Of a stretch of DNA of 64,000 bases, positions 40,766 through 56,329 are shown piece after piece; position 1 is the first letter of the stretch; each line of letters starts with the position of its first letter. This DNA is from Cellulosimicrobium protaetiae (lineage in GTDB: Bacteria; Actinomycetota; Actinomycetes; Actinomycetales; Cellulomonadaceae): positions 4,030,001-4,094,000 of the forward strand of contig NZ_CP052757.1 in NCBI RefSeq assembly GCF_009708005.2, given 5' to 3'. The notes beneath the pieces were generated by a model. It was not told the origin of the DNA. It did no database searches and saw nothing but the letters and a program-made list of their open reading frames with translations. A program made the translations under genes and the position numbers.

Positions 40766-40775
40766 TGCTATAGCA
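40766..40775. promoter_or_regulatory. TGCTATAGCA operator, hydroxyacid dehydrogenase side
   Basis: A perfect palindrome inside a larger repeat TGCTAT-AGCAA-ATAGCA (40766-40782), overlapping the leftward -10 (TAGCAT). The same double arrangement recurs at 56311-56329. Confidence 0.7.
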
Positions 40776-40810
40776 AATAGCACCTTCGACCAACCCTCGG
40801 GCCGGTCGGA

Positions 40811-40820
40811 TGCTATAGCG
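40811..40820. promoter_or_regulatory. TGCTATAGCG operator, SDR side
   Basis: A one-base variant of the regulon palindrome. It overlaps TAGCGT (40816-40821), which ends 6 nt before the SDR start codon and fits a leaderless promoter. Confidence 0.65.
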
Positions 40821-40827
40821 TGGGCTC

Positions 40828-41640
40828 ATGACCCTTGCCCCGGACGGCGCCCGCCGCCGCCTCGCCCTCGTCACCGGCGCCAGCTCCGGCATCGGTGCCG
40901 CCACCGCCCTCCAGCTCGCGCGCGACGGGCACGACGTCTGGCTCACGTACACCGGCGGCGAGGCCGGCGCGCGCGCCACCGCCGCCCGCTGCGAGGAGGA
41001 GGGCGCCGCGACGCGCGTCTCGCGCCTCGACCTGCGTGACACCGCGTCAGTCGAGGCGCTCGTCGCCGAGGTCACCGACGCCTGGGGACGCCTCGACGTG
41101 CTCGTCAACAACGGCGGCGTGTGCCCCTACCGCGCGCTCGACGACATCGAGCTCGACGAGTGGGATTTGGTCATGGAGACCAACGCGCGCGGCACGTTCG
41201 TGCTGTCGCGCGCCGCGCTCCCGCTGCTGCGCGCGGGTCGTCCGTCGCCCACCGGCGCCACGGTCACGCCCGACGAGCGGGCCGCGCGCGACCGCGCGAT
41301 CGTCAACCTCTCGTCCATCGCGGGCGAGCAGGGCGCGCTCAAGACCGGCGTGCACTACGCCGCGAGCAAGGCCGCGATCCTCGCGATCACGCGTTCGTTC
41401 GCGCGCATCCTCGCGAGCGAGGGCATCCGCGTGAACGCCGTGACGCCCGGCCCCGTGACGAGCGCCATCACCGACCAGCTCACCCCCGACGCGCGCGCCG
41501 GGCTCACCGCGTCCATCCCCCTCGGGGACTTCGGCACGCCCGACGACGTCGCCTGGGTCGTCGCGTCGCTCGCCTCCCCGCGCGCCGGGTTCGTCACGGG
41601 CGCGACGTACGACGTCAACGGCGGCGTCCGGATCGACTGA
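40828..41640 (+). CDS. Short-chain dehydrogenase/reductase
   Basis: A 270-residue classical SDR: cofactor loop LVTGASSGIGAATALQLAR (residues 14-32), LVNNGGVCPY, Ser of NLSSIAGEQG, and catalytic Tyr-Lys in VHYAASKAAILAI. The C-terminal motif is FVTGATYDVNGGVRID. An insertion at about 131-150 carries acidic/Arg residues. It probably oxidises a sugar, sugar acid or polyol, since it has its own copy of the regulon operator at the promoter. It is followed after 42 bases by the SnoaL-like gene. Confidence 0.88.
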   Translation: MTLAPDGARRRLALVTGASSGIGAATALQLARDGHDVWLTYTGGEAGARATAARCEEEGAATRVSRLDLRDTASVEALVAEVTDAWGRLDVLVNNGGVCPYRALDDIELDEWDLVMETNARGTFVLSRAALPLLRAGRPSPTGATVTPDERAARDRAIVNLSSIAGEQGALKTGVHYAASKAAILAITRSFARILASEGIRVNAVTPGPVTSAITDQLTPDARAGLTASIPLGDFGTPDDVAWVVASLASPRAGFVTGATYDVNGGVRID

Positions 41641-41682
41641 CGCCCCGCACACCGCGCCCACCCCCTGCCCGAGGAGGCACCC

Positions 41683-42015
41683 ATGAGCACGTCCCCGTCC
41701 GCCGTCGTCACCGCCCAGGTCGACGCCTTCAACGTCCGCGACCTCGACGGCTTCTGCGCGACCTACGCGCGCGACGCCGTCGTCAGCGGCGTGACGCCCG
41801 AGCCGATCGTCGGCCGCGAGGCCCTGCGCGCGTTCTACGCGAGCCGGTTCGAGGACACGGCGCTGCACTGCGTCATCGACGCGTCCGTGACGTTCGGCGA
41901 CCGCTGGCTCGTCGCGCGCGAGCTCGTCACGACGTCGAACGGCACCGGCGAGACCGTCGCGACGTTCGAGGTCCGCGACGGCCTCATCACCCGCGCGAGC
42001 ATGGTCAAGGGCTGA
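41683..42015 (+). CDS. SnoaL/NTF2-like small protein
   Basis: A 110-residue protein with the cone-shaped NTF2-like fold pattern: VTAQVDAFNVRDLDGFCATYARDAVV at the start and mixed strands to the end. Members include isomerases, cyclases and steroid-type binding proteins, and the activity cannot be assigned. The ATG at 41683 follows GAGGAGGC. It is probably co-transcribed with the SDR upstream and so part of the TGCTATAGCA regulon. Confidence 0.75.
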   Translation: MSTSPSAVVTAQVDAFNVRDLDGFCATYARDAVVSGVTPEPIVGREALRAFYASRFEDTALHCVIDASVTFGDRWLVARELVTTSNGTGETVATFEVRDGLITRASMVKG

Positions 42016-42122
42016 CGGCGACCGCGCACGGAGCGCGGCGCTCGACCCCTCGCCGCCGCGTCCTCCCGGTGCACGGCCGGAGCCGTCCATGAGAATCCGC
42101 GGGACCGCGGCGAGACGCGCGT

Positions 42123-42128
42123 TACGGT
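42123..42128 (+). promoter_or_regulatory. -10 hexamer, leaderless start of GNAT gene
   Basis: TACGGT ends 6 nt before the ATG at 42135, the same layout as at 30156 and other leaderless genes here. Confidence 0.45.
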
Positions 42129-42134
42129 TCGCCC

Positions 42135-42620
42135 ATGACCGACGTCGTCACCGACCGCCTCGCGCTCCGCGCCTACGCCCCCGAGGACGAGGACCACTTC
42201 GTCGGGATCCTCGGCGACCCCCGGGTCACCCGCTGGATGGGCGTTCCCACCCGACCGCTCCGCGAGGTGTTCCGCTCGGTCGTCACCGCGGAGCCCGCCT
42301 GGGACATCTGGGCGATCTGGGCGGGCGACGTCTACGTCGGCCACGGCGAGCTCAAGCCGAGCCCCGACCCGCACGTCGACGGCCACGAGCTGGTCTACGC
42401 CCTCGTTCCCGACGCGTGGGGTCGTGGCTTCGGCACCGAGATCGCGGCGGGCATCACGAAGCACGGGCTGGAGACCCTCGGGCTGGGCGCCGTCCATGCG
42501 ACCGTCGCGCCGGAGAACGGGGCGTCCCTGCGCCTCCTGCGCCGGCTCGGTTACGTCGACGCCGGGTCCTGGGTCGACGACGACGGCGACGAGACGCTGT
42601 GGCTGGTCAGGAGAGGCTAG
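42135..42620 (+). CDS. GNAT acetyltransferase (RimJ/RimL type)
   Basis: A 161-residue single-domain acetyltransferase: TDRLALRAYAPEDEDHFVGIL at the N-terminus, LVYALVPDAWGRGFGTEIAAGITKHGL with the acetyl-CoA loop, and TVAPENGASLRLLRRLGY, the typical RimL end. The acceptor (protein N-terminus or small molecule) is unknown. It stands between two sugar-catabolism operons but has no regulon operator. Confidence 0.85.
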   Translation: MTDVVTDRLALRAYAPEDEDHFVGILGDPRVTRWMGVPTRPLREVFRSVVTAEPAWDIWAIWAGDVYVGHGELKPSPDPHVDGHELVYALVPDAWGRGFGTEIAAGITKHGLETLGLGAVHATVAPENGASLRLLRRLGYVDAGSWVDDDGDETLWLVRRG

Positions 42621-42647
42621 AGCTCGACGGTTCCCCGTGCGCGGAGT

Positions 42648-43487
42648 TCAGGTGAGGCCGTAGCGCGCGTCGAGGTCGGGGTCGTGGGGCGGGTTGCCGA
42701 AGGACGCGGTCCAGGCGCCGTCGGCGGCGATCGACTGGCCGGAGACGTAGCCCGCCTCGTCGGACAGCAGGAACGCGACGAGCGCGGCGATCTCCTCGGA
42801 CTCGGCGATGCGGCCGAGCGGCGGGCCTTCGGCGAGCGCGCGCTCCTCGGCGGCCGGGTCGGCCGCGCGGGCGATCTGGGCGTCGAGGTGCGGGGTGCGC
42901 ACCCCGCCCGGCGCGACGGTGTTGGCGCGGATGCCGTACCGCCCGTACGTCACGGCGACGGAGCGCGCGAGCGCGTCGATGCCGCCCTTGGTCAGCTCGT
43001 AGGCGGCGTGGTCAGCGAACGCCGCACGGCCGTGGATCGAGCCGATGTTGACGATCGACCCGCCGCTCACCTGGTCGGTGAACGCCTCGACGGCGGCGGC
43101 GCAGCCCCAGAGGTAGCCGAGACCGTTGATCTCGACGACGTCGCGCGCGTCCTGCTCGACCTGCGCGGCGCGCTCCGGGTCGGCGAGCGCGTGCAGCGGC
43201 GTGCGGACGGTGATGCCCGCGTTGTTGACCCACCCGGCGAGCGGCGCGAGGTCGCGCGCGGCCCGCGCGGCCTCGCGGTGGGCCTCGCGGTCGCGCGAGT
43301 CCCCCAGCACGACGGCGGCGCACACCCCCTCCTCGACCGTCCTTGAGCCCGGGGTGCGCTCCAGCCCGACGACGGTCCACCCGTCCGCAGTGAGGCGCGC
43401 CGCCACGGCGCGGCCGATGCCCTTGCCGCTGCCGGTGACGACGACGCTGCGGTGCTTGTTCGCGGGTCCGGCTGCGGGTCCGGTCAC
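42648..43487 (-). CDS. Short-chain dehydrogenase/reductase, operon gene 4
   Basis: A 279-residue classical SDR. VVVTGSGKGIGRAVAARLTA is the cofactor loop, WVNNAGI marks the NAG motif, and GSIVNIGSIHGRAAF precedes the catalytic Tyr and Lys in YELTKGGIDALA. The C-terminus has YVSGQSIAADGAW. Start is the GTG at 43487, overlapping the dehydratase stop (GTGA). It is the last gene of the 47222-to-42648 operon. Two SDRs in one operon with a dehydratase between suggest oxidation at two carbons of the same sugar-acid skeleton. Confidence 0.88.
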   Translation of the reverse strand: MTGPAAGPANKHRSVVVTGSGKGIGRAVAARLTADGWTVVGLERTPGSRTVEEGVCAAVVLGDSRDREAHREAARAARDLAPLAGWVNNAGITVRTPLHALADPERAAQVEQDARDVVEINGLGYLWGCAAAVEAFTDQVSGGSIVNIGSIHGRAAFADHAAYELTKGGIDALARSVAVTYGRYGIRANTVAPGGVRTPHLDAQIARAADPAAEERALAEGPPLGRIAESEEIAALVAFLLSDEAGYVSGQSIAADGAWTASFGNPPHDPDLDARYGLT

Positions 43488-44806
43488 GAGGGTGCCTCCA
43501 GGTCGAAGCGGTCGGGGTCGAGCGTGAAGCCCAGGCCGGGCGCGTCGGGCGGGGTGGCGTGGCCGCCGTCGAACACGGCACCGCCGCGCACGAGCAGCGG
43601 CGCGGGGTCGTAGGGGTTGCCCTCGGGCGAGCGGTCGAACGTCTCGACGCCGATGCCCGCCGCGCCGCCGAGGTGCACGCTCACCTCCGGGTACACGTGG
43701 CTCGAGACCACCATGCCGCGCGCGGCCCACGCGCGCACGAGCGGGTCGGCGACCGTGATGCCGCCGATCGCGACGACGTCGACGCGCGGCACGTCGAGCG
43801 CGCCCAGCATCGCCAGGTGCGCGAAGACCTCGGGGTCGGTCACCTCGTCACCGACGGAGAGCGGCAGCCCGGACGCGTCGCGCACGCGCGCGGCGCCGAC
43901 CGCGTCCTCGGGGAGCAGGGGGTCCTCGAGCCACGCGAGCGCGGGCGCGGTCTCGCCGGACTGCCCCGCCGCGCCCGCGACGCCCCACGCGTCGAGGTCC
44001 GCGAGCGCCTCGTCCGCGTCGCGCCAGCCGAAGCCCACGTCGACGACGACGCCGCTGCGCCCCGCGACGGTCGGCCGGCCCGTGACGTCGGGCAGCTCGG
44101 CGCGCAGGATCGCGAGCAGGTCATGCATCAGCGCCCGGTCGGGCGAGCGCGAGATCTTCAGCAGCGGCCACCCCGAGCGCGCGTGCGCGAGCACCTCGTC
44201 CGCGACGTCGCGCGCGCTCCGGCCCGGCGTCGGATACGCCGCGACGAGGATCGCGGGGCGTGGCACAGCGACGGCCGCCCCGGATGAGACGACGCCGGGA
44301 CGCCCTGCGACGGCACGTGACGGAACGTCCGTGTCGTCGCCGACACCGGGCTCTGCGAACCCGGCGAGGTCCGCGCCGTCGTCGAGCAGGGACCAGACGG
44401 GGCGCCCGGCGAGCCGGCCCGCGAGGTCCCACAGCGCGACGTCGACCAGGCCGATCGCGCGCCGCACGAGGCCCACGCGGCCGACGATCGCAGACCCGCG
44501 CAGGGCCGCGTCCCAGGCGGCGCCGACGCTCTCGCGCGCGGTGACGCCGTCGGACGCGACGACCTCGCGGCCCAGGACGTGCGGAGCGACGAGCCGGTCC
44601 ACGAGCTCGGCCATGGGCGCCTCGCGCGTGAGCGCGTACGACTCGCCGGCGACAGTCCGGCCGTCGTCCGTCTCGGCGACGACGCGCACGCCGACGTACT
44701 CGCGCCGCTCGACGGTCATCGCGCCCAGACGCAGCGGCTGCGGCAGCGGGACGACCGTCGTCGCGGTCCGGACGGCGACGACGCGCGCGGCGGGCCCCAC
44801 GCTCAC
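43484..44806 (-). CDS. Enolase-superfamily protein (mandelate racemase/muconate lactonizing type)
   Basis: A 440-residue protein with the N-terminal capping domain (about 10-130) and a TIM barrel. Candidate catalytic residues: Lys217 in LLKIS, metal ligands Asp256 (VVVDVGFGW), Glu294 (WLEDPLLPED) and Asp320/Glu321 (SVGDEV), and His370 in VVSSHVYPEVSVHL as general acid/base. This supports acid-sugar dehydratase activity, though racemase or lactone isomerase remain possible. About 30 Gly/Ala/Val-rich residues (156-184) are inserted at the start of the barrel, making it longer than the usual 380-400. GTGA overlaps link it to both neighbouring SDR genes. Confidence 0.82.
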   Translation of the reverse strand: MSVGPAARVVAVRTATTVVPLPQPLRLGAMTVERREYVGVRVVAETDDGRTVAGESYALTREAPMAELVDRLVAPHVLGREVVASDGVTARESVGAAWDAALRGSAIVGRVGLVRRAIGLVDVALWDLAGRLAGRPVWSLLDDGADLAGFAEPGVGDDTDVPSRAVAGRPGVVSSGAAVAVPRPAILVAAYPTPGRSARDVADEVLAHARSGWPLLKISRSPDRALMHDLLAILRAELPDVTGRPTVAGRSGVVVDVGFGWRDADEALADLDAWGVAGAAGQSGETAPALAWLEDPLLPEDAVGAARVRDASGLPLSVGDEVTDPEVFAHLAMLGALDVPRVDVVAIGGITVADPLVRAWAARGMVVSSHVYPEVSVHLGGAAGIGVETFDRSPEGNPYDPAPLLVRGGAVFDGGHATPPDAPGLGFTLDPDRFDLEAPS

Positions 44807-45600
44807 TCCGGCTTCTTCGCGAGCGGCACGCCGTAGTCGACGAGGAACCCGCCGTCGACGTAGACGGTCTGGCCGACCATGTACGCGGCCTGGTCGGACA
44901 CGAGCCAGCTCACCGCGTTGCCGATCTCCTCCGGCTGGGCGAGCCGGCGCGCGGGGATGCGCGCGAGGATCGTCTCCTCCGAGAGCGTGCCCTGCGCGAC
45001 GCCCTGGCGGAACACGCCCGTGTCGATGTACCCGGGGGCGACGGCGTTGACCCGCACGCCGCGCGCGGCCCACTCGGCGCCCGCGGTCGCGGTGAGCCCG
45101 ATGACGGCGGCCTTGGTGGTGGAGTAGGGCGCCCGTCCCGCGGAGCCGCGGGCCGAGACGGACGAGATGTTGACGACGGCACCACGACCCGCCGCGAGCA
45201 TGTGGCGACCCGCGGCCTGGAGGCACGCGAAGACACCGTGCAGGTTGACGTCCACGACGGCCGACCACTCGTCCCAGGTGAGGTCCTCGAGCGCGCGGTG
45301 GCGCTGGATGCCCGCGTTGTTGACGAGCGCGTCGATCCCGCCGAACGCGTCCGCGAGGTCGTCGAACGCGGCGCGCACGGCGGCGTGGTCCGTGACGTCG
45401 AGCGGGGCCCACACGAGCCCGGGCGCGTCGGGGACGGCGCCGAGGTCGAGCGCGGGGAGGTCGTGCTGCACGACGTCCGCGCACACGACGCGGAACCCGT
45501 CGGCCGCGAGGCGCTCGGCGACGGCGCGGCCGATGCCGGCCGCTCCCCCGGTGACGACGGCGAGCGGGACGGGCGGGGCGTCGGGGGCGGGGGTGGTCAC
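44803..45600 (-). CDS. Short-chain dehydrogenase/reductase, operon gene 2
   Basis: A 265-residue classical SDR: AVVTGGAAGIGRAVAERLAADG, LVNNAGIQRHRAL, the Ser of NISSVSARGSAG, Tyr-Lys in YSTTKAAVIGLT and the C-terminal YMVGQTVYVDGG. The sequence resembles sugar/sugar-lactone dehydrogenases such as glucose/galactose/fucose types, without a firm substrate. Start is the GTG at 45600 (GTGA overlap with the ceramidase-like gene), and its stop overlaps the dehydratase start. Part of the four-gene TGCTATAGCA-controlled operon. Confidence 0.88.
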   Translation of the reverse strand: MTTPAPDAPPVPLAVVTGGAAGIGRAVAERLAADGFRVVCADVVQHDLPALDLGAVPDAPGLVWAPLDVTDHAAVRAAFDDLADAFGGIDALVNNAGIQRHRALEDLTWDEWSAVVDVNLHGVFACLQAAGRHMLAAGRGAVVNISSVSARGSAGRAPYSTTKAAVIGLTATAGAEWAARGVRVNAVAPGYIDTGVFRQGVAQGTLSEETILARIPARRLAQPEEIGNAVSWLVSDQAAYMVGQTVYVDGGFLVDYGVPLAKKPE

Positions 45601-47222
45601 TGGTCCTCCTCGGGGACGGGACGGATCGGGGTCGCGGGTGCGGCGTGCGGTGGTGCGACCGCGCCGGGGGGCCAGGCCGCGGTGGCGGCGAGCACGTCGT
45701 CGACGACGGCGCACGCGTGCCGCTCCAGGCGTTCGAGCGAGCCCGGCGCGAGCGGCGACTGCCAGGCCTGGTAGGCGCCGACGTCGTACGCCTCGCGCGT
45801 GGGCAGGTAGACGAAGCCGGGGCCGTTGGTGAGGTTCGCGACGACGACGGGCCGCGTCCCGGCGTGGGCGCGCACCGTGCGCTGGAGGCGCGAGTACGCC
45901 TCGCCGGGGTGCGCGACGAGCAGCGCCTCGCCCACGCGCCACACCCACGTGGGGTGCGGCACCGTCGGGCCGGTGACGTAGCCGTCGCGCAGGTTCCGCG
46001 CGCGGCGCAGGCGCTCCTCGCGCGAGCGCGGGTCGATGCCGGCCCACTCGGCCTCGAGCTCGTCCCACGTCGGGAGGTCGCGCAGGTCGAGCGTGACGGG
46101 CTCCTCCACCGCGGCGAGCGTGCGGGCGTCGGGGCGGGCATCGGTGCCGGTGAGCGCGGCCGACGGCACGGGCTCCCAGACGGCGAGCGGCGCGCCGGAC
46201 TCGACGACGTGGGTCAGCTCCAGCTCCGTGCCCGGCGGCGGGAGCTCGGCGAGCGCCGCGAGCACGGCGTGGCCGAGCGACGTGCCGTGGCGGTCCGCGA
46301 CGGCGGTGTCGCCCGTGTACTGCTCGCGCGGGGCGAGCTCGCCCGACGCGCCCTGGAGGAACGCGACGGGGGCGGCCGTCTCGCGCTCGACGAGGTCGCG
46401 CATGGCGCCCACGTAGTCGGGCGAGACGAGCCGGTTCTGCCACGCGAGCGTCGTCGGGTGGCACGCGTAGTTGACGATCGTGGCGAGGGTGACGGGGTCG
46501 CCCTCGGGCGCGACGCCGTCGGGCCGGGTGTCCGGGGCGCCGAGGGCGGGGCGCGTCGTGAGGCGCCCGACGACGACCGTGTCGTCCGCGAGGTCGGCGC
46601 CGGGCGAGCGCGGGGTGCCGGCGTCGGGGTTGAAGCCGACGAGCGGGCGCGGGGCGCTTCCCGTGGCGGTCCCCGCGTCCCCGTCGGCGCACCCGTCGAG
46701 CAGCGCCTCGCGGTTGGACGCGAGGCCGCAGCGCCCGGTCGTCCACTCGAGGGTCGCGGGTCGGAGCGACGCGATCGCCGCCACGGCGGCGTCGGCCGCG
46801 GCGCGCGCGAGGTCGCGCAGGTACGCGACGCCGCGGTCGCCGCCCGGGAGGTCGGCGTCGCCCGAGCACAGGACGGGTCCGGCGTGCGTGTGGGAGAGCG
46901 AGACGACCAGGCGCTCGACGGGCAGGCCGGTCGCGTCGAGGACGGTCGTGCGCAGCGTCGCCTCGTCGTCGACCCGGCGCCACCACGTGCCGTCGACCGT
47001 CACGAGGACGAGCGGGTCGGAGGCGCCGCCGGCCGGGGTGCGCTCCTCGGCGAGCGCGACCGCCGTGAGCGTCATGGCGCGGTGCGCACCCTCGGAGACG
47101 TCCCAGTCCGCCGGGCCCCAGTTGCGCGCCCGGATGCCCGGGGCGGGTGTCACGTCGCGGACGGCGACGCCCGCCAGGCCGACGAACGCGGGGACGGGGG
47201 CCCGCGTGTGCAGGGCGACCAT
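45597..47222 (-). CDS. Neutral/alkaline ceramidase-like domain protein, operon gene 1
   Basis: A 541-residue protein with the N-terminal domain of neutral ceramidases: GLAGVAVRDVTPAPG, SLSHTHAGPVL (zinc-type histidines), VNYACHPTTLAWQNRLVSPDY and QGASGELAPREQY. It has no signal peptide, so unlike true ceramidases it should be cytoplasmic. In a sugar-acid operon it may be an esterase, amidase or lactonase. The ATG at 47222 has a strong AGAGGAGG site. The regulon operator at 47252-47261 lies 30 bases upstream. First gene of the operon running to 42648. Confidence 0.78.
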   Translation of the reverse strand: MVALHTRAPVPAFVGLAGVAVRDVTPAPGIRARNWGPADWDVSEGAHRAMTLTAVALAEERTPAGGASDPLVLVTVDGTWWRRVDDEATLRTTVLDATGLPVERLVVSLSHTHAGPVLCSGDADLPGGDRGVAYLRDLARAAADAAVAAIASLRPATLEWTTGRCGLASNREALLDGCADGDAGTATGSAPRPLVGFNPDAGTPRSPGADLADDTVVVGRLTTRPALGAPDTRPDGVAPEGDPVTLATIVNYACHPTTLAWQNRLVSPDYVGAMRDLVERETAAPVAFLQGASGELAPREQYTGDTAVADRHGTSLGHAVLAALAELPPPGTELELTHVVESGAPLAVWEPVPSAALTGTDARPDARTLAAVEEPVTLDLRDLPTWDELEAEWAGIDPRSREERLRRARNLRDGYVTGPTVPHPTWVWRVGEALLVAHPGEAYSRLQRTVRAHAGTRPVVVANLTNGPGFVYLPTREAYDVGAYQAWQSPLAPGSLERLERHACAVVDDVLAATAAWPPGAVAPPHAAPATPIRPVPEEDQ

Positions 47223-47251: not shown

Positions 47252-47261
47252 TGCTATAGCA
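47252..47261. promoter_or_regulatory. TGCTATAGCA operator between ceramidase-like operon and GntR gene
   Basis: A perfect palindrome overlapping a leftward TAGCAT -10 (47256-47251), leaving a leader of about 22 bases before the ATG at 47222. It also lies about 110 bases before the GntR-family gene, so autoregulation is possible. Confidence 0.7.
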
Positions 47262-48132: not shown

Positions 48133-48148
48133 GGATGCACCCGCATCC
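48133..48148. promoter_or_regulatory. Inverted repeat before NmrA-like gene
   Basis: GGATGC-ACCC-GCATCC is a perfect repeat, with an outer CTGAG/CTCAG pair framing it. It lies 22 bases before the start codon. Candidate operator or leader hairpin. Confidence 0.4.
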
Positions 48149-48170
48149 ACCGATCTCAGGGAGGCACCAC

Positions 48171-48920
48171 ATGGCTCGCATCATCGTCGTCGGCGGCACC
48201 GGGCACGTCGGCTCGCGCGTCGTCGAGAAGCTCACCGCGCACGGGCACGACGCCGTCGCCGCATCACGCCGCACGGGCGTCGACGCGTACACCGGCGCAG
48301 GGCTGACGGAGGCGCTGGCCGGCGCCGACGTCGTCGTCGACACCACCCAGGCGCCGTCGTACGTCCCCGACGAGGTCCGGGAGTACTTCGCCACGTCGAC
48401 CGCGAACCTCGTCGCGGCGGAGAAGGCGGCGGGCGTCCGCCACCACGTCGCGCTCACCATCGTGGGCACCGACCGCCCGCAGGGCATCGGCTACTTCCAC
48501 GGCAAGGCCGAGCAGGAGCGCGTCGTCCGCGAGTCGGGAGTGCCGTACTCGCTCGTCCACGCGACCCAGTTCTTCGAGTTCACCCCCGCGATCATCGGCA
48601 CGGCGGCGCACGGGGACACCGTGCGGGTGTCGTCGGCGTCGATCCAGCCGATCGCCGCCGAGGACGTCGCGACCGCCGTCGCGCGGATCGCCGTCGGAGA
48701 GCCCGTGGGCGACGTCGAGATCGCCGGCCCGGAGGTCCTCGCGATCGGCGACCTCGTGCGCCGGACGCTCGCGGCGCAGGGCGACGGGCGCGAGGTCGTC
48801 ACGGCGGACGACGCGCCGTACTTCGGGGCGCTGATCGAGGACCGCACGCTCGTGGCCGTGGACGGTGCGCAGATCTTCGGGACGCGCCTGGAGGACTGGC
48901 TCGCCGCGCAGGCAGCCTGA
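48171..48920 (+). CDS. NmrA-like NAD(P)-binding protein
   Basis: A 249-residue atypical short-chain dehydrogenase. IIVVGGTGHVGSRVVEKLTAHG is the cofactor loop, and GYFHGKAEQERVVRESGVPYSLVHATQFFEF fits NmrA/quinone-oxidoreductase-2-like proteins. No strict catalytic YxxxK is visible beyond YFHGK. The ATG at 48171 has a GGGAGGC site. An upstream in-frame ATG at 48135 would fall inside the inverted repeat and is less likely. No regulon operator, so probably unrelated to its neighbours. Confidence 0.8.
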   Translation: MARIIVVGGTGHVGSRVVEKLTAHGHDAVAASRRTGVDAYTGAGLTEALAGADVVVDTTQAPSYVPDEVREYFATSTANLVAAEKAAGVRHHVALTIVGTDRPQGIGYFHGKAEQERVVRESGVPYSLVHATQFFEFTPAIIGTAAHGDTVRVSSASIQPIAAEDVATAVARIAVGEPVGDVEIAGPEVLAIGDLVRRTLAAQGDGREVVTADDAPYFGALIEDRTLVAVDGAQIFGTRLEDWLAAQAA

Positions 48921-49030: not shown

Positions 49031-49040
49031 TGCTATAGCA
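49031..49040. promoter_or_regulatory. TGCTATAGCA operator before Eis-like gene
   Basis: A perfect palindrome in the context TTTTGCTATAGCATCC, overlapping a rightward TAGCAT -10 at 49036-49041. It lies 34 bases before the ATG at 49075. Confidence 0.7.
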
Positions 49041-49074: not shown

Positions 49075-50172
49075 ATGCACCTGCGCACCGCCACGCCCGA
49101 CGACGTCCCCTCCCTCTACGCGCTGTGGGACCGCGCGTTCGACGCGCCGCTCATGGTGCCGGTCTACGAGACCGACGACGGTCGGCTCGACCGCACGCAC
49201 GTCGCCGTCGACCCGCTCCACGGCGGGGTGGTCGGCTCGGTGTACTGGACGCCGCGCGAGGTCGGCGGGCCGGACGGCGGCACGCTGCGGGCCGGCGGCG
49301 TCGCCAACGTCGCGACCGCCCCCGAAGCCCGCGGCCGGGGCCTCGTCCGGACGCTGCTCTCCCGGGCCGTCGAGCAGATGGAGCGGGCCGGCACGCACGT
49401 CGCGCTGCTGTTCACCGGCACCCCCGACGTCTACCGGTCGAGCGGCTTCGAGACGTTCGACGTGCCGCTCCGGCGCGGCGTTCCACGGACGCTCGGCGAC
49501 GCCGCGACCCACACGGTGGACGACCTCGCCGCCGAGTCGTTCCGCCCCCACACCCCCCGCGACGCGCCGTCCGGGCCGGGGGCTCCGCCGTCGGGCTCGG
49601 AGGACGACGCACCCCTGACCGTCCGCACCGACCGCCTGCCCGGCGTCCCACGGCCGGCATGGTCCGTCGCGCTCGGGTGGGAGCAGCTCGCCGCGCCGCA
49701 CGACAGGTTCGACGCCGCGGGCGGCGGACCACGCCCCCTCACCACCCGGCGCACCGCCGAGCACTGGGAGCGCCGCATCCCGCTCTGGTACTCCGGCGCC
49801 GAGGTGTTCACCGCGCGGGCTGCCGACGGGGAGGTGGTGGGCTACCTCGCCCACGAACCCGGGCCGGGCGTCCTGAAGGTCCGTGAGCTCGGCGTCGACC
49901 CGACGGCGGAGCGCGCCGGCGAGGTCGTCGACGTTCTTGCGCGCACGACGCTCCAGCGGGCGCGCCTCCACCGCTCCCCCGTCGTCGAGGTTCGCCTGCC
50001 CGCGCACCCGCTCACCGAGCGCTTCACCGCGGCAGTCCTCGACGCGCCGACGCCGGCGACGGACACGACCGGGATGCTCCGTACGGTCCGCGCGGGGGCC
50101 GACGTCGTCGCCCGTCTGCGGGAGGCCGCCGCAGCCGGGATGGGCTTTCATTGGCCGGGCGACTACCTCTGA
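49075..50172 (+). CDS. Eis-like GNAT acetyltransferase
   Basis: A 365-residue protein with an N-terminal GNAT domain (LRTATPDDVPSLYALWDRAF, then GGVANVATAPEARGRGLVRTLLSRAVEQM with the acetyl-CoA loop, and LLFTGTPDVYRSSGFETFDV). A second GNAT-like module follows (about 200-340, with VVGYLAHEP and KVRELGVDPTAERAGEVV). This is the Eis layout minus a clear C-terminal SCP2-like domain, so it is shorter than the usual 400 residues. Eis proteins acetylate amines. Its own copy of the regulon operator implies a role tied to the sugar pathway, perhaps an amino sugar or detoxification. Confidence 0.75.
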   Translation: MHLRTATPDDVPSLYALWDRAFDAPLMVPVYETDDGRLDRTHVAVDPLHGGVVGSVYWTPREVGGPDGGTLRAGGVANVATAPEARGRGLVRTLLSRAVEQMERAGTHVALLFTGTPDVYRSSGFETFDVPLRRGVPRTLGDAATHTVDDLAAESFRPHTPRDAPSGPGAPPSGSEDDAPLTVRTDRLPGVPRPAWSVALGWEQLAAPHDRFDAAGGGPRPLTTRRTAEHWERRIPLWYSGAEVFTARAADGEVVGYLAHEPGPGVLKVRELGVDPTAERAGEVVDVLARTTLQRARLHRSPVVEVRLPAHPLTERFTAAVLDAPTPATDTTGMLRTVRAGADVVARLREAAAAGMGFHWPGDYL

Positions 50173-50284
50173 TCCTGGGGCCGCCGCAGGGGTGTCACGG
50201 ATCCGGGCTGAAGACCGGTCGACCGCGACGCCCTGTCCGGACCGCCGGTTCGCCGTCCGCACGCTCGCCGCTATGTTCTCGGTC

Positions 50285-50803
50285 ATGCCTTCCGTTCGAG
50301 CCCGCCAGGCGATCGCCACCTCGATCGCCGTGGTCGTGTACGTGCTCTTGGCGTGCGCGGCAGTCGTCGCCGTGTGGTCCGGGATCTCGGGCACCGTCAA
50401 CAGCTGGCAGGCGCAGCACGACGGCGAGGTCGGCACGTTCACCCCGGTCGAGCAGCACTGCAGCTCGAACCGTGGCACCCCGTCCTGCCGCTGGACCGGC
50501 ACGTGGGAGCCCGAGGCCAGGGACCGCGTCATCAAGGACGTGCTCCTCGACGAGAGCCTCGGGACCGCAGAAGGCGACCCGCCTCCTGGTCCGGTCCATC
50601 CCACCCTCCACCACGACGCCTTGTCAGACCCGCAGGTCGTCTATCGGCCAGGTGATCGCACCTGGCTCCTGACCCCGGCTGTGACCACGGTCTTCCTCGG
50701 AGGCAGCGCCTACCTCGCCTGGAAGACGCACAGGTGGTCGCGCCGGGCGGCGGCAGCTGCGGCTCGACGAACCGAGCCGGGCAGGCACCGCACCGCCGCC
50801 TGA
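50285..50803 (+). CDS. Two-helix membrane protein of unknown function
   Basis: A 172-residue protein with membrane helices at about 11-33 and 131-150. An extracellular middle part between them contains a Cys pair (QHCSSNRGTPSCRW), and the tail is Arg-rich and cytoplasmic. No family recognised, but actinobacterial two-helix proteins with this topology are common. The start at 50285 is chosen because TATGTT (50272-50277) ends 7 nt before it, suggesting a leaderless mRNA. An in-frame ATG at 50273 lies within that hexamer. Confidence 0.55.
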   Translation: MPSVRARQAIATSIAVVVYVLLACAAVVAVWSGISGTVNSWQAQHDGEVGTFTPVEQHCSSNRGTPSCRWTGTWEPEARDRVIKDVLLDESLGTAEGDPPPGPVHPTLHHDALSDPQVVYRPGDRTWLLTPAVTTVFLGGSAYLAWKTHRWSRRAAAAAARRTEPGRHRTAA

Positions 50804-50930
50804 CCCACCCGGGCGGCGTCCTCGAGGGAAGACGAGCGCCCCGGGCCGATGGTCAAGCGCCTGCCGGTCACCTGGCCTCCGTGCTCGTGGGGCACAGGTG
50901 TCGAGCGACGGCCGTGCCACACTTCCGGCC

Positions 50931-51185
50931 ATGGCCGATCGCGAACCCGACGAACCGTCGGGATGGTACGAGAGCTGGTTGCGGGACGTGGCCGGTGGGG
51001 CGCCGGTCCGCACAGGGCCGCTCTTCCTCGGCTGGGTGGGGGTCGTCTCCGTCGTCGCGGCGGTCGTGTACCTGACGGGAGGCCGGAGCGAGCCGGCATA
51101 CATGGCTCCGATCGGAGTCGTCTCCATCCTCTACTGGTCCCTCGCGGTGCCCGCCTACGTGGCCAAGCGCTACCGCGGCCGATGA
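50931..51185 (+). CDS. Small two-helix membrane protein
   Basis: An 84-residue protein with an acidic, Trp-containing N-terminus and two hydrophobic helices (about 31-50 and 57-76), ending in a basic stretch (AKRYRGR). No family recognised and no clear ribosome site before the ATG at 50931. It may be real because codon usage and third-position GC follow its neighbours. Confidence 0.5.
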   Translation: MADREPDEPSGWYESWLRDVAGGAPVRTGPLFLGWVGVVSVVAAVVYLTGGRSEPAYMAPIGVVSILYWSLAVPAYVAKRYRGR

Positions 51186-51288
51186 GCGATCACGGGTCGG
51201 GTCGGGCAGCGGCTCGCAGGTCGGCGCGTCGCCACCCTGGCCCTGAACCGCGATCACACGAGCGGTCCGCGCAGGTCGCGTCGCATTT

Positions 51289-51298
51289 TGCTATGGCA
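51289..51298. promoter_or_regulatory. TGCTATGGCA operator variant, distal
   Basis: A one-base variant of the regulon palindrome in the context ATTTTGCTATGGCATTC, 64 bases upstream of the -35 for the beta-helix genes. Looping with the copy at 51360 is possible. Confidence 0.55.
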
Positions 51299-51352
51299 TT
51301 CAGGGGCCGCTCACACTCTCTCTGACCTGCATCGACACGCATCAGCCATCTC

Positions 51353-51381
51353 TTGACGATGCCATAGCATTTGGCTACTCT
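51353..51381 (+). promoter_or_regulatory. Promoter of tandem beta-helix genes
   Basis: TTGACG (51353-51358) and TACTCT (51376-51381) are separated by 17 bases. The regulon operator at 51360-51369 fills the spacer, so repressor binding would exclude polymerase. Confidence 0.6.
51360..51369. promoter_or_regulatory. TGCCATAGCA operator variant in promoter spacer
   Basis: A one-base variant of the regulon palindrome placed between the -35 and -10 of the beta-helix gene promoter. Confidence 0.65.
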
Positions 51382-51551
51382 CCGAGAGTCCGGTTCACCG
51401 TCGCAACGACGCGCACGAACCCGCTGACCCCGACCCAGCACCGGAACCGCACGACCCCCGCAGCACCGCTCCCCCGGAACACCCCGCAGCCCCGGGCCGC
51501 CGGAGCCTTCGCGTCGCCCGCCCGCACGGCGTCCTCCCGACGTCCCGAAGG

Positions 51552-53828
51552 GTGCCCGAGTTGTCCACTCCCCGATCCCAGACCCGCCCCGCGTCCCCGA
51601 CCCTCGGCCAACCCGAGCCGGCGGTCGACGCCCCGCCCCCGTCGCGGCGCAGCCTGCTGCGCGTGGCCGGTATCGCCTCCCTCGCCGCAGGCGCCGTCGC
51701 CCTCGGCACCGGCAGCGCCCACGCCACGCCCCTCGCCGGCGCACCGCTCGGCGCCAAGAACGACGACAAGCCCGACGCCGAGGTCCTCGTCGCCGCCACC
51801 GTCGCCGAGCTCACCGGTTGGAAGGCCAAGAAGCTCGACGACGGCACCGTCGCCCAGCTCCTCGGCCACGCCACCCCCGGCGACGGCGCCGAGCGCCTCC
51901 TGCGCTACGACGCCAAGTCCACCGCGACCACCAACGGCGGCACCGTCCTCGCCCCGAGCGACGCGGGAGCCAAGGGCCGCTGGCACACCCTGCACACCGG
52001 CACCGCCGACTTCCGCTGGTTCGGCCTCTTCGGCCCGGAGAACCCCGCCGACGCCGCGCTCGACGCCCTCGTCGACGACCCGAGCATCACCCGCATCGAG
52101 GCCCACACCGACCTCAACTTCACCCGCCGCCACACGTTCACGCGCTCGAACCTCGAGCTCGACTTCGGCGGCAACACGGTCACGAGCGAGGGCATCGAGC
52201 GCAACGCGCACGACAACCCGTTCGGCGCGGTCCTGTTCTTCCAGGGGCGGGTGACCGACGAGACGCAGCAGCGCACGCTCGCCGCCACCCTCCCCGACCT
52301 CGCCGACGTCTTCGAGGTCGCGGACGCGGGCGCGTTCGCCGTCGGGCAGTGGTGGGCGCTGCGCTCGGACGAGCGGCCCGGGGGCGGGGGCGACGAGCGC
52401 GAGCTCCAGCGCCTCGTCCAGGTCACGCAGGTGCTCGACGCGACGCACGTGCGCGTCGACTACAAGAACGGCTGGGAGCTGCCCGCCGGGCGCGTGCTCA
52501 CCTGGACGCGCGTCGAGCCCGTCGAGCAGGTGCACGTGCGCGCGATGACGTTCCACGGCTCCGGTCCGTTCGACGGCCCCGCGAACGGCGAGCTGCCCGA
52601 CGACCGCGAGATGACAGGCTCCCACCCCGTCGCGTTCGAGTACGCGGTGCGCTGCGACGTCTCGGACGTCCACGGCCACCGCACGTGGTGGCCCGTGATC
52701 ATGCGGCGCTGGAACACCCACTTCGTGACCGAGCGGTGCTCGGTCGCCAACCCGCCGACGGTCTTCTACGGCGGCGCCGGCTACCTCACCCAGCAGATCT
52801 ACTGCCTGTACGGGCGGGTCTCCGACTGCACGAGCCACAACGCGCGGCACCTCAACGACCTCACCGCGTCGGCGTACTGCCTCGTGGAGAACTGCCACGG
52901 CGACGGCGACGACCAGGGCGGCAACCCGTTCACGACCCACGGGCAGTACGAGCACGACCTCGTGTTCGTCGGCAACAGCGGGCTCATGGACATCGCCAAC
53001 TCGGGCGGCCAGTGGGGCACGGCGGCCAAGCGCATCACGGTCAAGCACCACACGTGCTCGTGGTTCGTCGCGGGCACCAAGATCACGGACCTCACGCTCG
53101 AGGACGTGCACGTCGTCGCACGGTCGACGTTCGACCCGCAGGCGACGCTCACGATCAACGCCGACGGCGCACAGGTGCGCGGCTGCACGGCCGGCTTCTT
53201 CGCCGTCGGGCAGCGGTCGTCGCTGTCGCGGCGCCCGACGGTCGTCGAGGACTGCGCGTTCGCGCTGCCCGCGGGGTCGGTGCTGCACCAGACGCCGGTG
53301 ACGAACGCCGTGCACTTCGTCCGCACCCGGATCACGGGCGTGGACGGCACGATCCTGCGCGGTGCCGGTCCCGTGACGTTCACCGACTGCGAGCTCGTCG
53401 GCGGCACGGACGACGCGCCCGCCGCCCCGGTCGACCTCGGCTCGGCGGACGTCACCGTCACGGGCGGGTCGTGGCGGGGCGTGGGCGTGCGGCTCAGCGG
53501 CGCGCGCGACCAGCGGCTCGTGCTCGACGGCGTGCGCGCGTCGGGCACGACGACGGCCGGCGCCCTCGTCTCGCGCGGCACCGGCGCGGGTGCCGTGGAC
53601 GTCACGCTCCGCGGCGCCGACCTGCGGGCCGCCGACGGCACCGCGCACGTCGCGCTGCGCCCCGGCGACCGCTACGCCGCGACCGGGTCGCGGTTCACGG
53701 GCGGTCGCCTCGACCTGCCCGACGGCGTGCGCGTCCTCCATGCCCGCAACGTCGAGACCGGCGTCGACCGCACCGGGCTCCCGACGTCCGGCGACGGCGT
53801 GCTCGTCGACGCGAACCTCGTCGTGTGA
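51552..53828 (+). CDS. Tat-exported right-handed beta-helix protein 1
   Basis: A 758-residue protein with a twin-arginine signal (SRRSLLRVAGIASLAAGA) and cleavage near GSAHA-TPLAG. After a linker module (about 70-140), DFRWFGLFGPENPADAAL and SNLELDFGGNTVTSEGIE resemble the entry of pectate-lyase-3-type beta-helices. The remainder (about 190-755) is a run of short strands and turns with repeated VHG, VENCHGDGDDQ and TINADGAQVRGC units, as in parallel beta-helix carbohydrate-active enzymes. No catalytic family can be named. Start is GTG 51552 (TTG 51561 is possible). The promoter carries regulon operators, so it is the likely extracellular depolymerase or binding protein of the system. Confidence 0.75.
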   Translation: MPELSTPRSQTRPASPTLGQPEPAVDAPPPSRRSLLRVAGIASLAAGAVALGTGSAHATPLAGAPLGAKNDDKPDAEVLVAATVAELTGWKAKKLDDGTVAQLLGHATPGDGAERLLRYDAKSTATTNGGTVLAPSDAGAKGRWHTLHTGTADFRWFGLFGPENPADAALDALVDDPSITRIEAHTDLNFTRRHTFTRSNLELDFGGNTVTSEGIERNAHDNPFGAVLFFQGRVTDETQQRTLAATLPDLADVFEVADAGAFAVGQWWALRSDERPGGGGDERELQRLVQVTQVLDATHVRVDYKNGWELPAGRVLTWTRVEPVEQVHVRAMTFHGSGPFDGPANGELPDDREMTGSHPVAFEYAVRCDVSDVHGHRTWWPVIMRRWNTHFVTERCSVANPPTVFYGGAGYLTQQIYCLYGRVSDCTSHNARHLNDLTASAYCLVENCHGDGDDQGGNPFTTHGQYEHDLVFVGNSGLMDIANSGGQWGTAAKRITVKHHTCSWFVAGTKITDLTLEDVHVVARSTFDPQATLTINADGAQVRGCTAGFFAVGQRSSLSRRPTVVEDCAFALPAGSVLHQTPVTNAVHFVRTRITGVDGTILRGAGPVTFTDCELVGGTDDAPAAPVDLGSADVTVTGGSWRGVGVRLSGARDQRLVLDGVRASGTTTAGALVSRGTGAGAVDVTLRGADLRAADGTAHVALRPGDRYAATGSRFTGGRLDLPDGVRVLHARNVETGVDRTGLPTSGDGVLVDANLVV

Positions 53829-53913
53829 CCCAACCGGGCGACCACCCGGGCACCCGAACCTTCCTCCCCACCGACACCCGCGCCGTCGTGCACGGGCCGA
53901 CGAAAGGACACCC

Positions 53914-56130
53914 ATGACCCTCGACACCACGACCGAGCCGACGACGGCGGCGCCGGGCGAGGCCGCCCAGCCGCCCTCGCGGCGCAACCTGCTGCGCGTC
54001 GCCGGCATCGCCTCCCTCGCCGCGGGCGCCGTCGCCCTCGGCAGCGGCAGCGCCCACGCGGCGCCCCTCGCCGGAGCGCTCCCTACGGGCAAGAACGACA
54101 AGCCCGACGCCGAGGTCCTCGTCGCCGCCACCGTCGCCGAGCTCACGGGCTGGAAGGCCAAGAAGCTCGACGACGGCACCGTCGCCCAGCTCCTCGGCCA
54201 CGCCACCCCCGGCGACGGCGCCGAGCGCCTCCTGCGCTACGACGCCAAGTCCACCGCGACCACCAACGGCGGCACCGTCCTCGCCCCGAGCGACGCGGGA
54301 GCCAAGGGCCGCTGGCACACGCTGCACACCGGCACCGCCGACTTCCGCTGGTTCGGCCTCTTCGGCCCCGACGACCCCGCGGACGACGCGCTCGACGCCC
54401 TCGTCGACGACCCCAGCATCACCCGCATCGAGGCCCACACCGACCTCAACTTCACCCGCCGCCACACCTTCACCCGCTCGAACCTCGAGCTCGACTTCGG
54501 CAACCACCTCATGACGACCGAGGGCATCGAGGACGCCGGGCAGGACGACCCCTTCGCGGCCGTGCTGTTCTTCCGCGGGAAGGTCACGGACGACGTCCGG
54601 ACGAACACCCTCACGGCGACGATGCCGGAGCTGCGCGACGACTACGAGGTCGCGGACTCGTCGCAGTTCGAGGTGGGTCAGTGGTACGCGGTCGAGGTCA
54701 ACGCGCTCACCGGCCGGTGGGAGCGCGAGCTCCAGCGCCTCGTCCAGATCACGCAGATCGTGGACGCCACCCACGTGCGCGTCAACTACAAGGCGGGCTG
54801 GTCGCTCGCGAAGGGCCGCACGCTCACATGGACGCGCGTGGAGCCCGTCGAGCAGGTGCACGTGCGCAACCTCGTGTTCCGCGGACGACCTGACGGCGAC
54901 CAGTACACCGGTTCGCACCCGATCGCCTACGAGTACGCGGTCCGCTGCGACGTGGAGAACGTGCACGGCGTCGCGACGTTCTGGCCGCTCGTCATGCGCC
55001 GGTGGAGCACGTTCTTCCGCACGGCGGGCTGCTCGCTGACCAACCCGGCGTCGGTCACGTGGGGCGGCGCGGGCTACCTGACGCAGCAGATCTACTGCAA
55101 CTACGGGCACGTGGTCGACTGCCACACGACCAACGCGCGGCACCTCAACGACTGGACCGCGTCGTCGTACGGGCTGGTGGAGAACTGCCACGGCGACGGC
55201 GACGACCAGGGCCCGTTCGTCACGCACGGCCAGTACGAGCACGACCTCACCTACGTGGGGAACTCGGGCCTCATGACGTTCGCCAACTCGGGCGCGGCCT
55301 GGGGCGGCGCGGCCAAGCGCATCACGGTGACGCGGCACGTGTGCTCGTGGTTCGTCGCGCGCGTCAAGGTCACCGACCTCACGCTCGAGGACGTGCAGGT
55401 CATCCGCAAGGACGGCCTCGCGGGGTCGGGGATGCTGTGGGTCAACGCCGACGGCGTGCAGCTCCGCGGCTGCCAGGCCGACGACACGCTGATCATCTCC
55501 CAGGCCTCGGCGCTGTCGAAGCGGCCCAACGTCATCGAGGGGTCGCGGTTCGCGGTCCTGCCGGACACCGCGATCACCCAGGCGAACGTCACGAACCCGG
55601 TGCACCTCGTCCGCACGACCCTGAACGGGCTGAAGAACGCCTCGTTCGCAGGGAAGGGCCAGGTCGTGCTCGACGCGTGCACGCTCGAGGCGGCCGAGGG
55701 CGAGGGGACCGTGACGGCGAGCGGCGACCTCACGGTGCGCGGCGGCGTCGTGCGCAACGTCGCCCTCGTCGCGGCGGGCGCCACGGAGCAGACGATCCGG
55801 CTCGACGGCGGCGCCCGGCTGGAGGGCAAGCCTGCGGGCGGCAGCTTCCTGCGCCGGGCGAAGGCGGACAAGCCGGTCACGTGGGCGCTCGACGGCGTCC
55901 GGAGCACCGCGCCGTCGGGTGACACTGGACACGTGAACCTAGACGCCGGTATCAACAAGTGGTCTGCCACGGGCTCGACCTTCGCGGGCGGCAGCCTCGC
56001 GCTCGCGCCGTCCGCGCTGGGCGGCGACTCGTACGCCCTGCACAGCGGCAACGTCGAGCAGGGCGTCACCCGCACGGCGTTCCCCGAGGACGGCGACCGC
56101 GTCGTCACGACGGGCAACCTCGTCGTCTGA
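53914..56130 (+). CDS. Tat-exported right-handed beta-helix protein 2 (tandem paralogue)
   Basis: A 738-residue paralogue of the preceding protein. It keeps the Tat signal (SRRNLLRVAGIASLAAGA) and the same domain order. From the linker module to about residue 190 it is nearly identical to protein 1, down to synonymous codons, while the helix beyond differs widely (for example KVTDDVRTNTLTATMPEL versus RVTDETQQRTLAATLPDL) and lacks the short GGNPF insertion. Conserved core stretches are NARHLNDxTAS, VENCHGDGDDQ and THGQYEHDL. The ATG at 53914 follows GAAAGGA. The 85-base gap has no terminator, so it is co-transcribed with protein 1. It probably acts on a related linkage of the same polymer. 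Confidence 0.78.
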   Translation: MTLDTTTEPTTAAPGEAAQPPSRRNLLRVAGIASLAAGAVALGSGSAHAAPLAGALPTGKNDKPDAEVLVAATVAELTGWKAKKLDDGTVAQLLGHATPGDGAERLLRYDAKSTATTNGGTVLAPSDAGAKGRWHTLHTGTADFRWFGLFGPDDPADDALDALVDDPSITRIEAHTDLNFTRRHTFTRSNLELDFGNHLMTTEGIEDAGQDDPFAAVLFFRGKVTDDVRTNTLTATMPELRDDYEVADSSQFEVGQWYAVEVNALTGRWERELQRLVQITQIVDATHVRVNYKAGWSLAKGRTLTWTRVEPVEQVHVRNLVFRGRPDGDQYTGSHPIAYEYAVRCDVENVHGVATFWPLVMRRWSTFFRTAGCSLTNPASVTWGGAGYLTQQIYCNYGHVVDCHTTNARHLNDWTASSYGLVENCHGDGDDQGPFVTHGQYEHDLTYVGNSGLMTFANSGAAWGGAAKRITVTRHVCSWFVARVKVTDLTLEDVQVIRKDGLAGSGMLWVNADGVQLRGCQADDTLIISQASALSKRPNVIEGSRFAVLPDTAITQANVTNPVHLVRTTLNGLKNASFAGKGQVVLDACTLEAAEGEGTVTASGDLTVRGGVVRNVALVAAGATEQTIRLDGGARLEGKPAGGSFLRRAKADKPVTWALDGVRSTAPSGDTGHVNLDAGINKWSATGSTFAGGSLALAPSALGGDSYALHSGNVEQGVTRTAFPEDGDRVVTTGNLVV

Positions 56131-56149
56131 CACCAGCCCGACGGCACCA

Positions 56150-56215
56150 CCCGCCGAACCCGGGATCGCTCCCCAGGACGCCTTCACCCTGGGGAGCGAT
56201 CCCGGGTTCGGCGGG
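56150..56215 (+). terminator. Strong terminator after beta-helix genes
   Basis: Perfect 28-base arms (outer CCCGCCGAACCCGGG, inner GCTCCCCAGG) enclose a 10-base loop, 20 bases after the stop of protein 2. Confidence 0.85.
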
Positions 56216-56268
56216 CGGGGGGAGCCGCGGCGCGAAAGGTCACAACTCCGCATCGCGTCGTGCGCGAG

Positions 56269-56297
56269 TTAACACGAGCGCCGATCTGGCGTAACAT
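56269..56297 (+). promoter_or_regulatory. Promoter of oxidoreductase-importer operon
   Basis: TTAACA (56269-56274) and TAACAT (56292-56297) are 17 bases apart. Transcription would start near 56304, with the operator at 56312 just downstream, a roadblock position. Confidence 0.55.
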
Positions 56298-56310
56298 CGG
56301 CATGGCAGGC

Positions 56311-56329
56311 TTGCTATAGCAAATAGCAA
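56311..56329. promoter_or_regulatory. TGCTATAGCA operator of importer operon
   Basis: TTGCTATAGCAA is a perfect palindrome (core 56312-56321) and lies within a wider inverted repeat TTGCTAT-AGCAA-ATAGCAA. The wider form also occurs at 40766-40782. Confidence 0.72.

Follow-up and report, generated by a model that had tools for sequence, protein, structure and literature searches.

Copies of a short palindrome, TGCTATAGCA, stand between genes in a 64,000-nucleotide stretch of the Cellulosimicrobium protaetiae chromosome (the window; G000:C1:4030001-4094000 in a genome of 4,784,181 bases, 99.99% complete), raising the question of whether a single regulator controls the genes beside them. A first-pass annotation, made from the letters of the window, had proposed one regulon under the GntR/FadR protein encoded at 47373 (gntR). 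The concentration of the palindrome in the genome and its co-occurrence with gntR in relatives support that proposal, and we consider it highly probable that the protein encoded at 47373-48059 uses the palindrome as its operator, with repression as the predicted mode of action. An unlinked site at sdaA, a third half-site and repressor-like promoter geometry come in addition to what the first-pass annotation had noticed.

The palindrome is concentrated at one gene cluster

All seven listed copies are present, four of them exact and three with one mismatch (TGCTATAGCG, TGCTATGGCA and TGCCATAGCA; Table 1), against a chance expectation of 0.05 sites in the window; none of 100 dinucleotide shuffles reached seven or more. 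Their intergenic position also held: none of the seven overlaps a mapped gene in a map where 90% of 37912-57783 is coding, and random placement would give seven of seven with a probability of ~1e-7. The complete genome contains eight sites with at most one mismatch, seven at the cluster and the eighth at the unlinked gene sdaA. The palindrome read backwards matched 105 times genome-wide, a control that is only rough because its dinucleotides differ from those of the palindrome. A chance origin was rejected by the window shuffles, by this genome scan and by the palindromes of equal composition described below.

The sites precede seven transcription units with ~20 genes in the window, in addition to sdaA outside it, and the first-pass count of at least 15 genes was if anything low. 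With operon limits inferred from strand and spacing, the units are DHDH-FAH and CER-SDR3-ENO-SDR2 on the minus strand and SDR1-SnoaL, gntR-NmrA, GNAT2, BH1-BH2 and GFO-SBP-permeases-EPIM-DAPA-DHDH2 on the plus strand, the last running beyond the window end (gene products are given in Table 1).

The palindrome follows gntR in the family

The first-pass annotation had suggested scanning the genome and its relatives. In the genome the palindrome is concentrated at the cluster, and across 150 family genomes and a wider set of 50 loci from several genera and classes it follows gntR. A GntR orthologue (E <= 1e-60; 86-100% identity) occurs in 15 of the 150 family genomes, in three genera. All 15 hold four to six exact sites, while 125 of the 135 genomes lacking gntR have none, ten have one and none of the 135 has more. 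A Fisher test on at least four sites returns 6e-21, a figure that is not a true probability because the genomes are related. Nine of the 135 are from the window's genus; eight are without a site, and the ninth, an incomplete assembly (G146; 75% complete, 560 contigs), has a single site in part of this cluster, on a contig that stops before gntR (L043). CER, used as a marker of the cluster, was detected in 16 of the 150 genomes, namely the same 15 and G071 (49% identity).

The site and gntR recur beyond the family

A contig scan with protein alignment A2 returned 81 relatives, of which 80 were kept: 50 loci with GntR at ~50% identity or more, and 30 at 45% or less. Eleven of the 50 belong to Cellulosimicrobium, Oerskovia and Isoptericola; one of these carries a Sphaerisporangium label, and most repeat genomes of the family set. 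The remainder are mainly Microbacterium, joined by Conexibacter, Thermomonospora, Actinomadura, Nonomuraea, one Streptomyces and metagenome-assembled genomes. Every one of the 50 loci has a site with at most one mismatch in the stretch compared, giving 168 sites of which 87 are exact; 319 palindromes of equal composition had a mean of 0.12 exact matches in the same loci and a maximum of 7. At 47 loci such a site lies within 350 bp upstream of gntR. The 30 more distant loci contain five sites with at most one mismatch, in five loci. The two exact ones, at Armatimonadota loci L136 and L137 (30% identity), stand ~48 bp before the position aligned with the first residue of the regulator, and a DHDH relative adjoins gntR there.

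In Thermomonospora, Actinomadura, Nonomuraea and a Streptomyces, gntR-DHDH-SDR1 forms a shared core. Whole-genome searches of 16 genomes of the wider set with a 9-base core gave matches in 15. The matches in seven Microbacterium genomes lie at the cluster, save one exact site in G543, and several of the other genomes searched have matches elsewhere too. At distant loci in Thermomonospora, Actinomadura, Conexibacter and Armatimonadota the neighbouring genes, inspected by eye, vary too much to point to a substrate.

Several of these records deserve separate mention. One Microbacterium genome carries a further, unlinked exact site (L190:3592), near SDR2- and NmrA-like paralogues by eye; another genome has a distal exact site (L191) in a stretch that could not be read. 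In Microbacterium L093:8235-9773, and also in L094 and L105, an ABC importer with an SBP_bac_5 binding protein is divergent from gntR, with sites between them. The record titled Sphaerisporangium cinnabarinum (L078) shares the cluster with G098 of the window's genus, and its species label may be wrong.

An eighth site precedes the unlinked sdaA gene

The eighth site (G000:C1:705299) lies partly within the 3' end of a methyladenine-glycosylase gene, ahead of sdaA, which encodes an L-serine dehydratase (TIGR00720; 589.8 bits against a cut-off of 345.1). In 14 of 15 cluster-bearing genomes (14 with gntR, and G146), TGCTATAGCA or CGCTATAGCA lies 52 or 51 bp before the aligned sdaA start. The site was absent within 110 bp in all eight gntR-lacking genomes compared (best matches with 4-5 mismatches) and within 160 bp in G011, G071 and G019, which also lack gntR, making none of 11 gntR-lacking family genomes. 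A search for sdaA at E <= 1e-120 found no match in 18 of 22 genomes, G072 and G007 included, and these lie outside the comparison. Chance as the origin of the eighth site was ruled out by the same site before sdaA in Oerskovia genomes. Judged from the aligned sequences, the operator seems to have been gained at sdaA in lineages carrying the regulator, with shared ancestry limiting the number of independent events. An unlinked metabolic gene appears to have been wired into the regulon in the lineages carrying it, and it offers a concrete clue to the substrate.

Architecture of the proposed operator

The five operators tested retain 9-10 of 10 columns across four to five genus representatives, compared with 7-16 of 60 flanking columns. 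O1, before DHDH, keeps 10 of 10 in five representatives (two Cellulosimicrobium, Oerskovia, Isoptericola and Microbacterium). Two pairs have a constant spacing in all Cellulosimicrobium loci compared (O1-O2, 45 bp; O5-O6, 71 bp), and paired sites 47-55 bp apart occur in many Microbacterium. O3, between the divergent CER and gntR genes, is a probable autoregulatory site.

Among 164 distinct 50-base stretches around sites, many of them from related strains, 57 have GCTA two bases outside the palindrome; any other offset up to 20 bases occurs at most twice. A T precedes GCTA in 52 of the 57, giving the element TGCTA-NN-TGCTATAGCA with direct half-sites 7 bp apart. An additional half-site 7-12 nt from the centre is described as a GntR feature in the accessible part of PMC4494728, and we therefore regard this third half-site as a form of a known feature. 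A different element, CTGACCTGC, lies between O5 and O6 (51322-51330) and is kept in Cellulosimicrobium although much of the surrounding spacer varies; it is perhaps the site of another regulator.

Direction of control and alternative explanations

The sites, their conservation, their co-occurrence with gntR and their overlap with promoters can be read directly from the DNA, and the promoter architecture points to repressor geometry. Upstream of BH1 the operator falls inside the 17-bp spacer of TTGAC(A/G)-17-TAnnnT in 15 of 15 orthologous promoters; before GNAT2 it adjoins a TAnnnT-like, -10-like hexamer in Cellulosimicrobium and Oerskovia (by eye); before GFO it begins 13-14 bases after TTAACA-17-TAACAT in 9 of 15; and before DHDH it ends 7-9 bases ahead of the start codon in 13 of 13. 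Operators at these positions would block RNA polymerase, and it is their overlap with promoter cores that favours repression. A simple promoter scan detected the GFO promoter alone among these. These positions make it unlikely that the same regulator, on the same operator, works mainly as an activator or in both directions according to operator position, even though two sites would suit activation: the sdaA site, where the geometry is less clear, lies upstream of a stretch that is alike in genomes with and without the operator, and O5 keeps its distance upstream of O6 in Cellulosimicrobium as an upstream activator site might.

That a different regulator binds the sites, with gntR merely among its targets, is very improbable. 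A site before gntR is by itself no proof that the GntR product binds it, and co-occurrence in relatives was assessed systematically for GntR only; against this, gntR and DHDH (often with SDR1) recur with the site in the distant lineages examined, the Armatimonadota loci keep it before gntR at 30% identity, and within the family it follows gntR. It is scarcely credible that the repeat is a promoter element or another non-regulatory repeat, a notion prompted by the likeness of TGCTATA, and of TGCTATAGC, to an extended -10 and by the 7-8 bases to the DHDH and SDR1 start codons, as for leaderless genes. Such an element accounts poorly for a two-fold palindrome with 9-10 of 10 positions kept, for the separate -10 visible at BH1 and GFO and for the absence of the palindrome from 125 of 135 family genomes lacking gntR.

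Several observations weigh against the GntR repressor model. Near gntR, the closest match to the palindrome differs at two positions in L111 and L117 and at four in L124, and the 15 gntR-carrying family genomes lie in only three genera, so that the counts are not independent. G078 and Microbacterium G476 carry gntR and lack the sdaA site, and G476 rules out sdaA as a universal member of the regulon. At the GFO promoter, six Oerskovia sequences differ from the TTAACA-17-TAACAT arrangement. Finally, ENO and FAH miss every listed NCBIfam cut-off, so that equivalog names yield no substrate.

With the GntR repressor retained as the best explanation, we infer binding, repression, effector and substrate as follows. 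A dimer would bind TGCTATAGCA with each subunit on one TGCTA half, and where a third TGCTA half-site lies 7 bp away, at roughly one third of sites, another subunit or dimer may join. The inducer-free regulator would repress about seven units in the window, its own gene included, as well as sdaA. A small pathway carboxylate (a sugar acid, 2-oxo acid or 2-hydroxy acid) would then be expected to bind the FCD domain and cause release; FadR-subfamily proteins are described in the accessible part of PMC4494728 as binding small ligands such as carboxylic acids. Exported tailspike-like beta-helix enzymes would cut an acidic polysaccharide, the ABC importer would take in the pieces, and these would be trimmed by the ceramidase-fold amidase and oxidoreductases. 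The enolase-type dehydratase, short-chain dehydrogenases, FAH hydrolase and DapA-like aldolase might then convert the sugar acids to pyruvate and C3 acids. The polysaccharide part, taken alone, has in our estimate an even chance of being correct.

The regulator departs from the FadR-subfamily recognition residue

The gntR product has a GntR domain (PF00392; 67 bits, cut-off 27) starting at residue 13 and an FCD domain (PF07729; 76.5 bits, cut-off 24.3), which places it in the FadR subfamily. Residues D134, H138, H184 and H206 are invariant in seven of seven aligned sequences; as candidate ligands of a metal-binding effector domain, they fit the Asp-His-His-His metal ligands of LldR in spacing.

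The operator rule given for the subfamily, TKGT/ACMA with half-sites 3 or 2 nt apart, is typical rather than universal, and NanR and BioR are published exceptions (PMC4494728, accessible part). TGCT-AT-AGCA fits the 2-nt-gap form except that the core G is replaced by C, and so departs from the rule. The first-pass impression of a site shorter and more AT-centred than known FadR-subfamily sites holds against this rule, with GT changed to CT. The same source describes Arg45 of FadR as the base-reading arginine of the recognition helix, typical of the subfamily without defining it. Compared with FadR by eye, Arg45 is replaced by His47 and Thr46 by Ile48, while Glu34, Arg35, Arg49 and Glu50 are kept as E36, R37, R51 and E52. 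His47 is found in 7 of 7 sequences of alignment A2 and in 50 of 50 loci, a count that is partly selected, as one of the two scan patterns required SHIPV.

From the sequences compared, it is plausible that the residue change and the change of operator base are linked. In the group of 30 loci with at most 45% identity, CTATAG occurs within 400 bp upstream in 5 of 19 with SHIPV and 0 of 11 without it; two of the five cases are exact TGCTATAGCA and three are TCCTATAGGA-like. A general His/CTATAG code was considered and is not established, the core being unseen in 14 of the 19 SHIPV loci. At L144, L145 and L152, SHIPV-type GntR genes have TCCTATAGGA-like palindromes ~100 bp upstream.

In the open-licence literature, no paper with the exact site concerned GntR by title, and none was found joining GntR to a TATAGCA palindrome or to GCTATAGC. 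The one paper naming both GntR and Cellulosimicrobium is on nucleases by title, and by title and opening of the abstract nothing further on this system was seen. An operator and a regulator are now proposed for this cluster of Cellulosimicrobium, Oerskovia, Isoptericola and Microbacterium.

Genes of the cluster and candidate substrate

Table 1. Predicted operators and genes of the cluster, in window coordinates
Feature	Position	Strand	Remark
O1, TGCTATAGCA	40766..40775	.	8 bases to DHDH start codon
O1 third half-site TAGCA	40778-40782
O2, TGCTATAGCG	40811..40820	.	7 bases to SDR1 start codon; 45 bp from O1
O3, TGCTATAGCA	47252..47261	.	between CER (-, 29 bases) and gntR (+, 111 bases)
O4, TGCTATAGCA	49031..49040	.	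adjoins TACTTT (49025-49030), -10-like, before GNAT2; hexamer by eye
O5, TGCTATGGCA	51289..51298	.	71 bp upstream of O6
O6, TGCCATAGCA	51360..51369	.	within 17-bp spacer, TTGACG (51353-51358) / TACTCT (51376-51381)
O7, TGCTATAGCA	56312..56321	.	begins 14 bases past TTAACA-17-TAACAT (56269-56297)
O7 third half-site TAGCA	56324-56328
FAH, fumarylacetoacetate-hydrolase-family enzyme	38818..39609	-
DHDH, D-2-hydroxyacid dehydrogenase	39753..40757	-	relatives named C-terminal binding protein or glycerate dehydrogenase
SDR1, short-chain dehydrogenase	40828..41640	+
SnoaL-like protein	41683..42015	+	adjoins SDR1 in relatives
SDR2, short-chain dehydrogenase	42648..43487	-
ENO, enolase-superfamily, mandelate-racemase-type	43484..44806	-	sugar-acid dehydratase candidate
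SDR3, short-chain dehydrogenase	44803..45600	-
CER, neutral-ceramidase-fold hydrolase, likely amidase	45597..47222	-	model of an orthologue 64% identical
gntR, FadR-subfamily regulator, 228 aa	47373..48059	+	recognition helix SHIPVREAL; FCD domain
NmrA/NAD-binding protein	48135..48920	+	after gntR; weak member
GNAT2, Eis-like acetyltransferase	49075..50172	+
BH1, beta-helix protein, paralogue of BH2	51552..53828	+	Tat-like signal by eye
BH2, beta-helix protein	53914..56130	+	tailspike/depolymerase-like model
GFO, Gfo/Idh/MocA oxidoreductase	56398..57783	+
ABC importer, binding protein and two permeases	57897-59171, 59248-60201, 60198-61112	+
EPIM, NAD-dependent epimerase/dehydratase family	61109..62179	+
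DAPA, dihydrodipicolinate-synthase family	62179..63363	+	from relatives' names and Pfam; no Pfam match of its own
DHDH2, second D-2-hydroxyacid dehydrogenase	63360..64000	+	by likeness to DHDH; ~424 bp more past the window

The first-pass labels for the beta-helix, importer, dehydrogenase, dehydratase, FAH, DapA-like and Eis-like genes are backed by Pfam, database names or fold. Membership is weak for an SGL lactonase gene (37912-38784), which is without a site, and for GNAT1 (42135), matched in one compared locus (L024); NmrA stands beside gntR in 3 of 14 gntR loci (L024-L037). CER has a ceramidase fold, judged from the model of its orthologue, and scores below the Pfam PF04734 gathering threshold (21.1 bits against 32.1). 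For BH2 the model suggests a beta-helix fold of the tailspike-like depolymerase/lyase kind. Neither BH1 nor BH2 has a Pfam match, and a sequence search of the PDB with BH1 found no relative, with one row at E 0.54.

BH1 and BH2 are 97% identical over 300 nt (51763-52062 and 54095-54394), against 71-83% in the other listed repeat blocks, which suggests gene conversion. Many BH2 relatives carry PF27114. Despite the beta-helix model, many of the named ones bear the label 'peptidase C14', probably mis-propagated; in databases the exported beta-helix proteins of the cluster are listed under that name or as hypothetical. Upstream of the window, L045:1-16000 contains five very long minus-strand open frames (~800-1400 aa), at least some with signal-like starts by eye, and the palindrome is absent there.

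A carbohydrate remains the likely class of substrate. Protein folds and families suggest that it is an acidic polysaccharide, perhaps with amide groups, degraded via sugar acids. An L-rhamnonate/L-fuconate-type pathway was not indicated at NCBIfam equivalog level: FAH scores 246.6 against the rhamnonate-pathway cut-off of 500, and the best equivalog score of ENO is 58.4 against 500. SDR1, SDR2, SDR3 and DHDH exceed no NCBIfam cut-off among the best 25 listed, and no NCBIfam family is listed for CER or DAPA. We also considered, as a doubtful extension, that His for Arg marks a new GntR specificity class reading a CTATAG-centred palindrome with a third half-site in Actinomycetota and Armatimonadota, with a Cellulosimicrobium/Oerskovia substrate carrying amide-linked serine. 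If true, such an acidic polysaccharide would explain the presence of both a ceramidase-fold amidase and an L-serine dehydratase in the regulon.

Comparison with known systems

Non-phosphorylative pathways of the L-fucose/L-rhamnose type use short-chain dehydrogenases, an enolase-type dehydratase and an FAH hydrolase. The present cluster likewise unites these three kinds of enzyme, and FAH has a relative, 8gsr. In contrast to those pathways, none of the characterised dehydratases found is close to ENO, and the cluster also has amidase-fold, DapA-like and DHDH genes.

Among regulators, Escherichia coli NanR resembles the system proposed here in being a GntR-type repressor of a sugar-acid regulon with close direct-repeat half-sites (PMC8012715, accessible part); it also has a metal-binding effector domain, a feature that the candidate ligands would give the present regulator. 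According to the same source, NanR has three GGTATA direct repeats and a 32-residue N-terminal extension, whereas here the core is a palindrome, a third half-site accompanies 57 of 164 stretches and the GntR domain begins at residue 13, so that the NanR type does not apply. HypR of Streptomyces coelicolor and other FadR proteins with a 2-nt gap share with the present regulator the gap between half-sites, and HypR is also an actinobacterial GntR regulator of catabolism; its targets, however, are L-hydroxyproline genes, and the accessible part of PMC4494728 lists it among the GT/AC sites.

The system also resembles the FadR subfamily as exemplified by E. coli FadR: a GntR winged helix joined to an FCD domain, a short AT-centred palindrome, sites before the regulator's own gene and in divergent promoters, and an extra half-site (PMC4494728, accessible part). 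Relative to that description the operator is unusual, its core G being C, and the counterpart of Arg45 is histidine at all 50 loci. The change from Arg to His together with that from GT to CT would constitute a natural protein-DNA co-variation on which the recognition code of this very large family of regulators could be tested.

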